From Marivita sp. (GTDB lineage Bacteria; Pseudomonadota; Alphaproteobacteria; Rhodobacterales; Rhodobacteraceae), in contig NZ_JAEPMO010000005.1 in the NCBI RefSeq assembly GCF_017643905.1, forward strand, positions 1-56,956: 56,956 bases of DNA, given 5' to 3'. Positions 6,044-45,887 of the stretch are shown here, one piece after another. Under the pieces are notes generated by a model. It had not been told where the DNA came from, ran no database searches, and worked only from the letters and a program-made list of their open reading frames with translations. Numbering within the stretch: the first letter of the stretch is position 1; every line of letters starts with the position of its first letter. The position numbers and the translations under genes are program-made.

Positions 6044-6994
6044 TCAACCGTCGACCACGATATCTGATGCTTGCACGCCGAGCCGATAACCCCAGTTGCG
6101 CACCGTCACGATCAGGGTCTTGCTCTCGGCATCGGTAAACCCGGCAGCCTTTAAAGCGTCACGCAGCTCACGGATCAGATCCTTGGCCTCGCGCGCCGTC
6201 GTGCCTTCTAAATATGGTCCAGAGGCGACGTGGTCGCGCGACTGCGCCTTTTCGAGTAAACGTTCGAACACGGGGAAAATCTGACGCGACAGAATGACGG
6301 AGCGACCATTCCATTGAACCTCGGCCGTTGCCTTTCGCACACGAAGCACGGGCGCCAGCGGGACCGGTGCCAGAGCCGCGATGTCGATCCTGGCGCCAAG
6401 GCCATTTGTGGCAGGCGTCAGCACCTCAAGGGTTGCGATGAGATGAAAGCCCGCATCATGATGTCGCCGGGCAGTCTCCGCTGGCAACGCCGGTGCGAGG
6501 ATCGTGATGTCCGAACCCCGCGCGGACTGGCGCAAGGATGCAATGATGCCGTCGCCAGACAAGGCTGCGGGCTCCAATGCGAGATACACTGCGCGCCCCA
6601 ATGGCGTATCGCCGAGCCGCCAGACATTCTCCGCAGGGCGCTTCGGGCCTGCAGCGAACCCGGCTGCGGCGCCTATCACTGATGCCAACCCCTCAGCGCC
6701 GATGTGGAACACGCGCAAATCATCCTCAGTGAGATCGACGTCGTTTCGGCGGTCCAGGGGGCACTCGGCCCGAAATGCATCACCGGCTTTCCGGATCGAC
6801 CGACACGGGAGCCCGCACTCACAGGCGTCGCAGACGTCCCAATCGGTAAGTGGCGCCTGTTCGACGAGGACACGTTTCGCAAGTAATCGGTCGAAGACCG
6901 GGCCGAAGTATGGCGCCGCAAGCTGGCCGGGCAGGATTGCGTCGTCACCAGCCTCACTCAGCCGCGTCAACAACCTCAAAATCGTCTCGGTCAT
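6044..6994 (-). CDS. unknown protein with Cys cluster and OmpR-like winged helix
   Basis: A 316-residue protein with no family I recognise as a whole. Residues 55-78 hold five cysteines (55, 58, 60, 64, 78) that could bind zinc. The last 85 residues look like an OmpR/PhoB-type winged helix: WNGRSVILSRQIFPVFERLL corresponds to the entry strand and first helix, and TVRNWGYRLG to the wing hairpin usually written TVRGRGYRL. No receiver domain is present. It overlaps the end of the upstream gene by 41 bases, so both are probably made together. A DNA-binding or sensing partner of its neighbour is a guess. Confidence 0.65.
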   Translation of the reverse strand: MTETILRLLTRLSEAGDDAILPGQLAAPYFGPVFDRLLAKRVLVEQAPLTDWDVCDACECGLPCRSIRKAGDAFRAECPLDRRNDVDLTEDDLRVFHIGAEGLASVIGAAAGFAAGPKRPAENVWRLGDTPLGRAVYLALEPAALSGDGIIASLRQSARGSDITILAPALPAETARRHHDAGFHLIATLEVLTPATNGLGARIDIAALAPVPLAPVLRVRKATAEVQWNGRSVILSRQIFPVFERLLEKAQSRDHVASGPYLEGTTAREAKDLIRELRDALKAAGFTDAESKTLIVTVRNWGYRLGVQASDIVVDG

Positions 6995-34112: not shown

Positions 34113-34237
34113 ACCTCGGCAGTTGACAGATGCTGGCGCAGGCTGGCACAACCCGCACAAGGGGCACGCGGATGCCTCGTGAGGCGACAGCCGAAGACCC
34201 GCATCCTTGAAACCTGTCTTAAGGGAAGGATGGCGCA

Positions 34238-35056
34238 TTGGCCTCACCAACTGAAATCACTCCGACTCAACTTGCCCGCCTCGTCGGGACACCGCATGCA
34301 CCAGTTCTGATCGACGTGCGCATCCAAGCAGACTTCGACGCAGATCCATACCTGATCCCTGGTGCAGTCCGACTTCGCTTTGATGACATGGACCGCTGCT
34401 ATGAAACGCTGCGCGGTCAGTCTGCCGTCGTCTATTGCCAAAAAGGTCTCAAACTCAGCCAAGGCGCGGCGGCACTCTTGCGGACAAAGGGCATTCCGGC
34501 AGAGACGCTAGAAGGCGGACATGTGGCGTGGCGCACCGCCGGTCTGCCAATGGTCGATACCGCGAAACTGCCAATGGCTGCTGAAACAGGCCACACACTA
34601 TGGGTCACACGGCACCGCCCCAAGATCGACCGTATCGCTTGCCCGTGGTTGATCCGGCGCTTTGTCGATCCACAGGCTCAGTTCCTCTTCGTGTCACCCG
34701 GTCAGGTGCTGAATGTGGCGGACAAGTTCGCGGCGACTGCGTTCGATGTGGAAAATGTCTTTTGGAGTCATCGTGGTGATACATGCACCTTTGATACGAT
34801 GATCATGGAATTCGGAATCGGTCACGAGGCTTTGGACAGATTGGCAACCATAGTGCGCGGAGCCGACACCAACCGCGATGATTTGGCACCAGAATCTGCG
34901 GGGTTGCTGGCAGCATCACTGGGGTTATCCCGCATGTACCGCGATGATCTGGAGCAGATGGAGGCGGGTTTTCTTTTGTACGATGCATTGTATCGCTGGG
35001 CACGCGATGCCACGGATGAAACTCATGGCTGGCCAAGCGCAGTTGGCGTGTCATGA
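34238..35056 (+). CDS. rhodanese-ChrB fusion protein
   Basis: A 272-residue two-domain protein. Residues about 5-108 are a rhodanese domain with the active-site loop VVYCQKG (Cys67). Residues about 115-265 are the C-terminal domain of chromate-resistance protein ChrB, seen in LWVTRHRPKIDRIACPWLIRRFVDPQAQFLFV and GDTCTFDTMI. The start is a TTG at 34238. Its stop overlaps the start of chrA (35053-35056), so both act together in chromate resistance or sulfur/oxyanion stress. ChrB domains regulate or assist chromate reduction; the rhodanese part might handle sulfur in the same response. Confidence 0.88.
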   Translation: MASPTEITPTQLARLVGTPHAPVLIDVRIQADFDADPYLIPGAVRLRFDDMDRCYETLRGQSAVVYCQKGLKLSQGAAALLRTKGIPAETLEGGHVAWRTAGLPMVDTAKLPMAAETGHTLWVTRHRPKIDRIACPWLIRRFVDPQAQFLFVSPGQVLNVADKFAATAFDVENVFWSHRGDTCTFDTMIMEFGIGHEALDRLATIVRGADTNRDDLAPESAGLLAASLGLSRMYRDDLEQMEAGFLLYDALYRWARDATDETHGWPSAVGVS

Positions 35057-39095: not shown

Positions 39096-39599
39096 TCAAT
39101 CGTCATCGTCGTCATCGTCGTCATTGCCTCCACCACCGCGACCACTGTTGTCGTCCCGGTCGTCGTCCCGGTCGTCGTCCCGGTCATCGTCGCGATCGTC
39201 ATCGTCATCACGATCGTCACGGTCATCATCGCGACCGCTGTTGCTGCTGCCGCTACCGCTGTTGTCGCTGTCATCGTCGGCGTCATCATCGTCGACGTCG
39301 TTGCTACGGTCGTCATCGACGTCATCGTCGTCGCGGCCCCGTCTGCCGTTGTCATCGGACCGATCTTCGTAATCCCGCAAGATCGCGCCCGTGGCGGGGT
39401 TCAGGACGATCTCGCGGCTTCCCCGCGGCCCGGTTGCAACGATCCGTGTCCGTCCAAGCAGCGTCCGCGCAACCCGTATTCTCTGGTAGCCCTGACGCTT
39501 CAGCTGATTGACCACCTGTTCCTCGGCCGTCTGCGCAAAAAGCGCGCCGGGGAAGGTGACGCCTGCGAGCAGGCTTGCCATGAGCTGTCTTCGTTTCAT
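39096..39599 (-). CDS. exported PepSY-like protein with Asp/Arg-rich tail (short)
   Basis: A 167-residue exported protein. A signal peptide ends near FAQ, then one PepSY-like unit runs to about residue 75 (EEQVVNQLKRQGYQRIRVARTLLGRTRIVATGPRGSREIVLNPATGAIL). The remaining 90 residues are almost only Asp, Arg, Ser, Asn and Gly, with DDDRDD-type repeats and a final run of eight Asp. This tail is built by imperfect repeats of GTC/ATC-type codons on the plus strand. The ATG at 39599 has GGAGG upstream. The tail could bind calcium; no classical RTX nonapeptide is seen. Confidence 0.8.
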   Translation of the reverse strand: MKRRQLMASLLAGVTFPGALFAQTAEEQVVNQLKRQGYQRIRVARTLLGRTRIVATGPRGSREIVLNPATGAILRDYEDRSDDNGRRGRDDDDVDDDRSNDVDDDDADDDSDNSGSGSSNSGRDDDRDDRDDDDDRDDDRDDDRDDDRDDNSGRGGGGNDDDDDDDD

Positions 39600-39611
39600 T
39601 CCCAACCTCCA

Positions 39612-39643
39612 AGAGGTTCCCGCCGGTTGGGGCGAGAACCTCT
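39612..39643 (-). promoter_or_regulatory. hairpin covering the ribosome site of the short PepSY gene
   Basis: AGAGGTTC (39612-39619) pairs with GAACCTCT (39636-39643), extended by CGCC/GGCG inside the loop. It lies in the 65-base gap between the two PepSY genes, and its edge touches the GGAGG of the downstream gene. It may lower expression of that gene relative to the first, by attenuation or by masking. Confidence 0.5.
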
Positions 39644-39664
39644 GGTCTTCAGCTATCAGATCGA

Positions 39665-40567
39665 TCAATCGTCGTCATCATTGTCGTCGTCGTCGTCATC
39701 GTCGCGATCATCATCCCGGTCGTCGTCGCGATCATCGTCGTCGTCATCGTCGTCGTGGGAATCGTCATCACGCCCACGATCATCATCGCCGTTGTCATCG
39801 TCGCGGCCACCCCGATCGTCGTCGCGGTCATCATCGCGATCGTCATCGTCGCGATCGTCATCGTCGCGGCCGCTGCGGCGGTCATCATCGTCATCGTCGT
39901 CATCACCCCTGCCGCTACGGCGGTCGTCGTCGCGACTGTCATCGGAGCTTGCGCTGTCGACAAAGTCACGGTTCCGGTTGTCGATTTCCACGCCCGGACG
40001 GGTGTCTTCCCCGGATCGCACGGTTTCAACCTCTTGCTTGATGACCTCGCCTGTGGCGCGGTCAAAAACGGTTTCGACCTTTTCGGTGCCACGGATCGCT
40101 TCGACCTTGGTCTGGGTCACCCCGTTCTTGACTTCGATCCGGGTGAACCCCTGCGCCTGAAGATCGCTCACAAGCTGATCCGTCGACATACTGCCGGTCC
40201 CGGCGAAAGTGGTCGAGGTGCTGGTCGACGTCGCAGTCGTTGTGCGACTGTCATCCGAGACACGTCCGACATCGACGAAATTGCGATCACGATTGCGGAT
40301 TTCGACACCCGGTCGCGTGTCTTCGCCAGCACGTACACGTTCGACCTCCTGTTTGAGGATGTTGCCGGTGGCGCGGTCATAGACCACTTCGAGCTTCTGT
40401 GTGCCGCGGATCGCCTCGACCTTGATCTGGCCGATGCCATTGTCGATCTCAATACGCTGGAAACCCTGCTTGGTCAGGTCGTTGATGATCTGATCGGTTG
40501 CGGATTGCGCCATGGCCATTGTGCTGGCGAAGGTCGCGACGACCGCGGAAATCAATGTCTTTTTCAC
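39665..40567 (-). CDS. exported PepSY repeat protein with Asp-rich tail (long)
   Basis: A 300-residue exported protein started by GTG. After a signal peptide (MKKTLISAVVATFASTMAMAQ) there are two PepSY-like repeats, at about 22-90 and 130-195, each with the core QIINDLTKQGFQRIEI or QLVSDLQAQGFTRIEV followed by a KVEAIRGT block and an ATGN/ATGE turn. Residues from about 200 are nearly all Asp and Arg with Gly and Ser, in four-residue DDDR periods. The pair of repeats points to gene duplication from the short paralogue downstream. A polyanionic calcium- or metal-binding role is likely but untested. Confidence 0.82.
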   Translation of the reverse strand: MKKTLISAVVATFASTMAMAQSATDQIINDLTKQGFQRIEIDNGIGQIKVEAIRGTQKLEVVYDRATGNILKQEVERVRAGEDTRPGVEIRNRDRNFVDVGRVSDDSRTTTATSTSTSTTFAGTGSMSTDQLVSDLQAQGFTRIEVKNGVTQTKVEAIRGTEKVETVFDRATGEVIKQEVETVRSGEDTRPGVEIDNRNRDFVDSASSDDSRDDDRRSGRGDDDDDDDDRRSGRDDDDRDDDDRDDDRDDDRGGRDDDNGDDDRGRDDDSHDDDDDDDDRDDDRDDDRDDDDDDDNDDDD

Positions 40568-40806: not shown

Positions 40807-42027
<1,221 letters not shown>

Positions 42028-42086
42028 CGCGCGCCTCTTTTGTCGAACGGGACACAGGTAGCGGGGTGCAGCGGGATGAGCAAGGG

Positions 42087-42179
42087 CAAGCGCCTTCGAA
42101 GGCGCTTGGGACCGCGTTTCGAAACGCGGTTTTTAAGCCAATTCGAATTGGCTTGGCTCACGCGATTTCGAAATCGCGT
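42087..42179. repeat. array of four tandem perfect palindromes with a TTCGAA core
   Basis: Four perfect palindromes follow one another: 42087-42108 (22 bases, arm CAAGCGCC), 42111-42130 (arm ACCGCGT), 42135-42154 (arm AAGCCAA) and 42160-42179 (arm ACGCGAT). All are centred on TTCGAA, but their arms differ. Centres lie 23, 24 and 25 bases apart. The last ends at the base before the stop codon of the 76-residue gene, and the first lies 60 bases before trpB. On the minus-strand transcript they would make four successive hairpins. Confidence 0.9.
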
Positions 42180-42410
42180 TCACCGGACCCGCCGGATCGG
42201 AAGATCGTTGCAGAACACGACATAGTGGCGACCGTTGCGGACTGCCTGAAACCCGCGTCTGTGCACCTCGGCGATGAAGGCGTCATATCCGACAAGCCGT
42301 TCGACATCGCGGATCTGGCGTTTCACCACACCGCCCTTCTGCGCCTCAGCCGAGGACAGCATCTGGGTCAGCCAGATTTCGGGTGTGAGGTGATCGGGAA
42401 GATGTGTCAT
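42180..42410 (-). CDS. small conserved hypothetical protein upstream of trpB
   Basis: A 76-residue soluble protein (MTHLPDHLTPEIWLTQMLSS... ending DLPIRRVR). It has one predicted helix region and a C-terminal beta hairpin, with no signal or metal motif. It reads toward trpB, so both may share one transcript through the palindrome array. I do not recognise the family. A name such as phosphoribosylanthranilate isomerase would be wrong for so short a protein, as it lacks the barrel. Confidence 0.6.
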   Translation of the reverse strand: MTHLPDHLTPEIWLTQMLSSAEAQKGGVVKRQIRDVERLVGYDAFIAEVHRRGFQAVRNGRHYVVFCNDLPIRRVR

Positions 42411-44709: not shown

Positions 44710-44830
44710 GGTCTGTCCTTCACTGGTGCGCCCGGTTTACGCCGCTTCGCCACCAGAGGCCAGCCGTGTGATGACGCTGTTGCTCTGGCGGCTGCACGCT
44801 TTTATGGTCGCTCAGGGAGAGGGTTTCGGC

Positions 44831-45202
44831 ATGAACGATCAGCGTCTGAGTTTCAAAGAGATGTGCGCCAGGTTTGATGTGACGCCACGCACGCTCAGGT
44901 ATTACGAATATATCGAACTGCTGCAGCCCGACCGCGAGGGGCGGTCGCGGTGGTATGGTCCGAAAGAGGTTGCCCGGATGACGCTCATCCTGCGTGGGCG
45001 CAAATTCGGGTTTCAGCTAGAAGACATCCGGCAATGGCTGCTGATCTATGAAAAGGACGGCACCGAAGCGCAGATGCGCGCATGGATCGCCTTGGCCGAC
45101 CGGCAACTTGGCGAACTGGCCGAACAGCGCAAACAGCTTGATCAGGCCATCGACGAGTTGCAGAAATTGCGCGACGACACAGCCGACAGCCTCAACAGCT
45201 GA
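44831..45202 (+). CDS. MerR family regulator
   Basis: A 123-residue MerR-type regulator. The winged helix-turn-helix is at the N-terminus ([26 protein letters not shown]), and the C-terminal coiled coil (LADRQLGELAEQRKQLDQAIDELQKL) would dimerise it. GGGAGAGGG lies upstream of the ATG at 44831. It has no metal-binding cysteines, so the inducer is probably organic, such as an acyl-CoA. It is a paralogue of the next MerR gene, 280 bases away. The gap between them is non-coding and holds operator-like sites. Confidence 0.88.
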   Translation: MNDQRLSFKEMCARFDVTPRTLRYYEYIELLQPDREGRSRWYGPKEVARMTLILRGRKFGFQLEDIRQWLLIYEKDGTEAQMRAWIALADRQLGELAEQRKQLDQAIDELQKLRDDTADSLNS

Positions 45203-45364
45203 CCGACAGCCACCCAAACGACTCAGTTGCGCTTGGGCCTTTTACACACTGGCCCTGGCCCGGAACGGCTGACTTCGGGTCAGGAATTCCTGACCTGCCC
45301 GCACATGCCACCCAAAGCGCTTTGAAACAATATTTCCGTCACATGAGGGTGACGTTGCCTGATC

Positions 45365-45411
45365 TTACGTCAACGAAAAAGTGACGTGGCGTCTGAGTTA
45401 CGTCAACGTAA
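45365..45411. promoter_or_regulatory. paired TTACGTCAACG operator-like sites
   Basis: TTACGTCAACGAAA (45365-45378) and TTACGTCAACGTAA (45398-45411) lie 33 bases apart, three helical turns, in the gap before the second MerR gene. The sequence is close to the TTTACGTnnACGTnAA sites known for LiuR-type MerR regulators of fatty and branched-chain acid genes. They likely bind one or both MerR proteins and control the beta-oxidation operon. Confidence 0.6.
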
Positions 45412-45482
45412 ATTCCCATTGTAAGAAGGCACCAGCCCTCGCATTTCGCTGCCATGACCGGCACCGAAAAGGATGATGAGAC

Positions 45483-45887
45483 ATGACCGACGACCGTATC
45501 ATGACGATCAGAGAAATGTGTGACGCCTATGACGTCACGCCGCGCACTCTGCGTTTCTACGAAGCCAAGGAACTGCTGTTCCCGATCCGCGAAGGGCAGA
45601 AACGACTGTTCACCAAGCGCGACCGCGCACGGCTCAAGCTGATCCTGCGCGGCAAGCGCTTTGGTTTCAGCCTCGAAGAAATCCGTCAGCTTCTGGACCT
45701 CTATCACATGGGCGACCAGCAGCAGACACAATTGGCCCGCACCTACGAAATCGCACAACAGCGCCTGTCTGACATGGAAGCGCAACGTGATGAGCTTAAT
45801 CAGGCCATCGACGAACTCAAGGAACAGATGCGTTGGGGCGAGAAGATGCTTGCCTCGATGGATCAAAGCAAACGCGCGGCCGAGTAA
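45483..45887 (+). CDS. MerR family regulator (LiuR-like) of the beta-oxidation operon
   Basis: A 134-residue MerR protein, related to the previous one: N-terminal HTH with [43 protein letters not shown], then a dimerising coiled coil ([26 protein letters not shown]). No cysteine is present. It lies 28 bases before the acyl-CoA dehydrogenase gene, making it the likely local regulator, with the operator pair upstream. LiuR/PsrA-type proteins sense acyl-CoA intermediates. Confidence 0.88.

Follow-up and report, generated by a model that had tools for sequence, protein, structure and literature searches.

The DNA analysed, referred to below as the window, is a stretch of 56,956 bases in which trpB and a small gene, both read on the minus strand, are separated by an array of four perfect palindromes centred on TTCGAA and by a conserved block (Table 1). 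The centres of the palindromes are 23, 24 and 25 bases apart, and these four, all within 93 bases, are the only palindromes in the window with arms of at least 10 nt; this is beyond chance, since 20 order-2 Markov simulations of the window gave a mean of 0.15 such palindromes per window. The initial annotation of this DNA, which described palindromes perfect over 20–22 bases with centres 23–25 bases apart, was thus accurate, also in naming TTCGAA as the shared centre. Contrary to its statement, however, the arms do not differ completely: in the family to which they belong, the outer ends (A, A/C, G) and the centre (T-T-C) are conserved and mainly the inner positions vary. Neither does the array fill the space between the two genes: it adjoins the stop codon of the small gene, but 59 bases remain before the start of trpB at 42027.

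Table 1. Features of the region between trpB and the small gene (positions in the window).
Feature	Position	Strand	Remarks
trpB	40807–42027	minus	PALP domain
Conserved block between array and trpB	42028–42086	minus	Promoter-like pair inside
Palindromic unit nearest trpB	42087–42108		22 nt, TTCGAA centre; arms of this last unit retained in most array-bearing orthologues
Palindromic unit	42111–42130		20 nt, TTCGAA centre; present also in the yebC chain of the same genome
Palindromic unit	42135–42154		20 nt, TTCGAA centre; imperfect copy in the yebC chain of the same genome
Palindromic unit	42160–42179		20 nt, TTCGAA centre; adjoins the stop codon of the small gene (42180–42182); second arm base C (C-G pair), A (A-T pair) in most orthologues
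Small gene, 76 aa	42180–42410	minus	Array directly 3' of its stop; no match in a Pfam search

The block between the array and trpB is, judging from its sequence, likely to hold the trpB promoter, as it contains the pair TTGCTC (42083–42078) and TACCTG (42060–42055) on the minus strand, with a spacer of 17 nt. A simple signal scan of the window reported no promoter-like site in this block and no terminator at the array. RNA folding of the small-gene strand of the array gives four stem-loops (z = -6.1), and on the opposite strand a partly different fold is preferred (z = -5.2). Membership of a known RNA family was rejected, as the Rfam covariance models gave nothing at the gathering score over the array (the best of the sub-threshold matches had 15.9 bits, the cut-off being 37.6), and a search of a plasmid collection with the array gave no match. 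The earlier opinion that no named element has this design agrees with the Rfam result and with the open-licence literature, to which our statement is limited, where no description of the family was found.

Elsewhere in the window there are a chrB-a cis-regulatory RNA (Rfam RF03078, 47.5 bits) at 34156–34240 on the plus strand, two adjacent minus-strand genes (39096–40567) whose protein ends are long low-complexity tails rich in Asp, Arg and Ser, and two adjoining plus-strand genes (44767–45887) recognised by eye from their translations as coding for MerR-like regulators.

Across 17 genomes of the genus, the array goes with the small gene and not with trpB. An intact orthologue of the small gene (87–100% identity) is found in eight genomes, including that of the window, and all eight have an array of two to five units; in two genomes with a truncated small gene there are four units (two of them imperfect) and one unit, respectively. 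In the remaining seven, no unit precedes trpB and the small gene lacks a close orthologue; five of them (G001, G002, G003, G009 and G016) show almost no change in the stretch that runs from TTGCTC to the trpB start codon, which has diverged in the other two, G007 and G015. G002 has a second copy of trpB, and the comparison covers one copy. The array is therefore regarded as the 3' flank of the small gene, lying upstream of the likely trpB promoter, and a trpB leader, as suggested in the initial annotation, or attenuator was rejected, as was a function of the array as a trpB device; the criterion, absence of the array from relatives, is one which that annotation had set for itself. Stretches of the window's genome are ca. 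81–90% identical to Marivita records over kilobases, and the genus is very probably Marivita, of which M. geojedonensis (L139) has an orthologous array. The 76-aa gene has a paralogue (48% identity) in G000 (C247:3457–3717) and G016 (C25:5520–5780), and this too has a TTCGAA chain within a few bases behind it.

The array represents a single locus within a dispersed family of extragenic palindromes of some Rhodobacteraceae, the units of which are ca. 20 nt long, have arms that are variable yet complementary, and form chains of one to five at a spacing of 22–25 nt. Compared with the rest of its own genome, the 201-base array region matched contig C80 with 89% identity along 90 of its bases, and had weaker matches on contigs C80, C62 and C37. 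Chains with other arms lie in the same genome in the xseA/ymdB-like gap, between a convergent gene pair, behind yebC, at the end of fumC, and in a gap on C37, and GTCGAC and TTGCAA also occur among their centres; yebC, fumC, xseA and ymdB-like are names of genes which we take to be such by recognition. The pattern TTCGAA-N15..21-TTCGAA is found 28 times in this genome, as against once for the reversed control, and 8–60 times per genome in 16 congeners, as against 0–4 in the controls, these counts taking in chance matches without palindromic arms. The chains that the initial annotation proposed to look for are thus present both across the genome itself and in its relatives. In an order-wide count with N16..20 (196 genomes), four genomes outside the genus reached 21–53 (g40: 53; g97: 45, 47 and 21) and the others outside it had 0–9 each, and a separate count gave 21 matches for one g3 genome. 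The family is abundant in a small number of further genera of Rhodobacteraceae too, and its abundance is patchy between genera. An exact 20-mer occurs at no fewer than 80 loci of named genomes, and among the matches listed (80 loci) all but one come from records of Rhodobacteraceae genera, Paracoccaceae, Rhodobacterales or Alphaproteobacteria, the exception being an actinobacterial record, Enemella evansiae TN21-6 (L114), at 6073–6092.

The anatomy of the units was followed in 601 kb of DNA around the listed 20-mer loci. With the search seed left out, arms of 8, 9, 10, 11 and 12 nt were counted 24, 7, 82, 58 and 25 times, i.e., with a sharp lower edge at 10, the centre was TTCGAA in 156 cases, TTGCAA in 15 and GTCGAC in 9, and there were 220 stems of at least 8 with a 4-nt loop (TCGA in 157) versus 22 in a simulated copy. 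With the seed included, 140 of the 163 spacings below 60 nt were of 22–25 nt, and a logo of 475 distinct perfect units comprised the outer end A, A/C, G (A in 87% at the first position and 74% at the second) and the centre T-T-C; there were 140 different arms among these units, AAGCGCCTTC accounting for 114 of the 475. Of the complete intergenic units chosen regardless of their arms (from all matches of the window's genome and 15 of the 60 in G014, one contig-end unit being left out), 51 of 62 had perfect 10-nt arms, and so did 6 of 15 units in called coding sequence of the same sample. Among TTCGAA sites that stand alone, only 1 of 42 has perfect arms; this and the variability of the centre do not fit the earlier proposal of an array of sites read as TTCGAA as such. 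In a sample of 51 units from the window's genome, 13 pairs had identical arms versus 2.4 expected.

With gene contexts taken from a home-made hexamer gene caller, the 131 distinct chains at the 80 listed loci comprise 39 in convergent, 57 in tandem and 9 in divergent gaps, 22 in called coding sequence and 4 at edges, and per kb of gap their density is 3.7, 1.7 and 0.6 for convergent, tandem and divergent gaps, respectively. The chains cluster directly behind stop codons: at these loci the distance to a stop codon is 15 nt or less in 73 of 135 cases, and that to a start codon in 10 of 75. Among 34 chains from the window's genome and the G014 sample, 16 are convergent, 8 tandem, 2 divergent and 7 coding, with 1 at an edge.

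At the yebC, fumC and ymdB loci, units have been gained, lost or have decayed among orthologues, the decay being marked at ymdB in G004, G013 and G015. The window's genome and G011 have in the yebC chain an extra two-unit block matching units 2 and 3 of the trpB-side array, and at ymdB of G002 two units have been joined at TTCGAA by a deletion, one contributing its left arm and the other its right arm. The comparison of yebC and fumC units comprised 12 and 10 of 17 orthologues, respectively, those without a recognisable chain being left out, one of which (L204) resembles a diverged relic. Counted cell by cell over the stems of orthologous units, 34 cells are changed on both sides and still paired and 878 are unchanged, the remainder being made up of 17 cells with G-U as read on the given strand, 5 with A-C and 29 with some other mismatch; the count omits rows with gaps in the unit and includes three misregistered or non-orthologous rows (trpB L053 unit 3, trpB L050 unit 1 and yebC L197 unit 1). 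In two ymdB units the covariation score was reached by 0 and 1 of 500 shuffles, which leave relatedness in place, and by no slid control; the distinct rows were used (10 of 14 and 9 of 13), of which L239 and L244 are perhaps not strict orthologues; the number of changed pairs in the first ymdB unit is less striking, as 77 of the 500 shuffles reach it. Loops vary (TTGA, TCAA, TGGA, TCCA) with stems intact, TCGA being the loop in 94 of 119 orthologous rows, and stems also remain paired with the centres TTGCAA, GTCGAC, TTCCAA, TTTGAA and TTCAAA. Pairing has thus been kept while the arm sequence changed, as the initial annotation had read from the four palindromes alone, and this makes its hairpins plausible, if not their place in a trpB leader. 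At the 3' end of fumC in G006 (L212) there are three units, all without the central CG (TTCAAA, TTTGAA and TTTCAA) and all with intact stems; this loss of CpG in the loop might reflect deamination.

Selection for an RNA stem would predict an excess of G-U over A-C on the transcribed strand. The numbers are 4 G-U and 5 A-C in a wider count over tandem gaps, and 9 and 3, respectively, in tandem-locus orthologues (p = 0.15). Together with the cell count above, these counts disagree, and there is no clear G-U excess; where genes converge, the stem might be required on both strands, and wobble pairs would then be forbidden. Of 142 gene ends with chains, only 9 have a unit with a U-tract behind it, and the units were accordingly rejected as canonical terminators. 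Two detectors found canonical or U-tailed hairpins at 7 and 13 of 92 convergent ends with chains and at 7 and 15 of 82 without them, the rates of the second detector being near its background (29 of 247 places); ends with and without chains thus do not differ clearly, which lends no support to the chains having replaced canonical terminators. By eye, a U-tailed hairpin is seen at the same place in four of seven chainless fumC orthologues and two of five chainless yebC orthologues, and also in some fumC orthologues that carry units.

The explanation that we favour, with a confidence just short of even, is that the chains are REP-like two-way hairpin chains of 3' ends, their function being inferred. 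Once transcribed, from either strand, each unit would fold into a stem of 8 bp closed by a UCGA loop, and a chain would act as a two-way 3'-end element which may help RNA polymerase to stop, with or without Rho, or hold up exonucleases working 3'-to-5', or both, keeping neighbouring transcripts apart. In the window, the array would serve the 3' end of the small gene and shield the trpB promoter from read-through. The chains gain, lose and exchange whole units, most likely via recombination. In favour of the 3'-end reading are the clustering at stop codons rather than starts, the gradient from convergent to divergent gaps, the tie of the array to the small gene rather than to trpB, the changes by which orthologous stems altered on both sides and stayed paired, the predicted stem-loops on both strands of the array, the perfection of units chosen regardless of their arms, and the extra two-unit yebC block of two genomes. 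Against it are the rarity of U-tracts, the about equal rarity of U-tailed hairpins with and without chains, the want of a clear G-U excess, the absence or decay of chains at many orthologous loci, and the 22 of 131 chains inside called coding sequence.

In a less probable, though still substantial, alternative, the chains are REP-like repeat DNA with no needed host function, spreading and exchanging by recombination and surviving best behind stop codons. The arms would then owe their lasting, perfect complementarity to mutation itself, through template switching between them or fold-back correction, and pairing would be no proof of selection. Patchy abundance, presence, absence and decay at orthologous loci, block exchange together with the deletion joined at TTCGAA, the surplus of identical-arm pairs and the unclear G-U balance all accord with it; the clustering at stop codons and the kept stems, however, are easier to understand given a function, and a fold-back route alone would not keep the TCGA centre. 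A further reading, rather unlikely in our judgement, is that of a new class of self-perfecting DNA palindromes, in which a putative dedicated or replication-coupled process, folding or switching template at the TCGA centre, would produce the units and maintain their exact complementarity. If this were true, the arms could drift freely provided that both halves changed together, and it is compatible with the two-sided changes, with G-U not being in clear excess, with the constancy of the centre and with the sharp minimum of 10 in arm length. Operator or architectural sites in double-stranded DNA for a dimeric protein reading TTCGAA, for which the centre as, with the outer ends, the best conserved part and the regular spacing of 22–25 nt might speak, are improbable, as the arms vary freely yet remain complementary, centres can lose symmetry while stems hold, and the chains lie behind stop codons, not in promoters. 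Little probability is likewise left to ordinary intrinsic terminators, here in tandem: location, stable stems and the U-tailed hairpins at the same place in some chainless fumC and yebC orthologues suit them, but such hairpins also accompany units at fumC, U-tracts are scarce, and the scan of the window found no terminator at the array. A trpB leader hairpin or attenuator has in its favour that the array adjoins trpB in the window and is nevertheless very improbable, given the seven congeners without upstream units, the pre-trpB block nearly unchanged in five of them, and like chains at yebC, fumC, xseA/ymdB and other genes.

The family thus consists of tagless extragenic palindromes, mostly without a candidate transposase, in which comparison of orthologous loci shows the arms to evolve on both sides; the bacteria concerned are marine, named and in part cultured (Marivita, Nioella and Tropicibacter among others). 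Their natural variants, with swapped arms, lost units and changed loops, offer a test bed for a long-standing question on extragenic palindromes, namely whether repeated 3' hairpins are under selection for a role at RNA 3' ends or are repeats whose perfection is owed to the mechanics of DNA.

Among known kinds of elements, intrinsic terminators are classified to include U-less and tandem hairpins, also bidirectional ones; the family resembles them in position and hairpin form, and differs in having a U-tract at so few ends. The dRS3 repeats of Neisseria, of a 20-bp design, are short, lie in intergenic arrays, and have constant ends around an interior that varies. The family shares the short intergenic repeats, the arrays, the constant ends and the varying interior, but, unlike in dRS3, its interior is complementary even where it varies, and its centre is constant. 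The dRS3 repeats are named in PMC3733652, the source also of the following descriptions of REPs. GTAG REPs and REPINs, associated with the RAYT transposase, are dispersed extragenic palindromes, often clustered and often behind genes (PMC3733652), and the family is likewise dispersed, extragenic, palindromic, clustered and located behind genes. It has, however, no GTAG tag (of 475 units, 7 have GTAG at most 8 nt from one of their ends, as against 13 of 475 random places), and mobilisation of the RAYT/IS200 type was rejected, since the Y1 tyrosine transposase domain PF01797, over the cut-off in 6 of 28 genomes, is missing from the window's genome and from 10 of the 14 chain-rich ones, being present in four. 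CGTC REPs of Alphaproteobacteria and other bacteria have stems of 8–9 bp, almost always with two initial A-T pairs, and loops of 4–5 nt, are dispersed mostly behind coding regions without a dedicated transposase, and are mostly head-to-head dimers (PMC3733652). The 8-bp stem, the 4-nt loop and the A-rich outer ends of the family are like theirs, and so are its dispersal, its usual place behind genes and the want of a dedicated transposase. On the other hand, the family has no CGTC tag (at the end of 47 of 475 units and at 61 of 475 random places), its loop is symmetric, it has no CCA tail, and its units are symmetric and form chains of one to five. As neither tag is enriched, membership of the GTAG or the CGTC group was rejected, and we file the family as REP-like in the broad sense, as a new variant.
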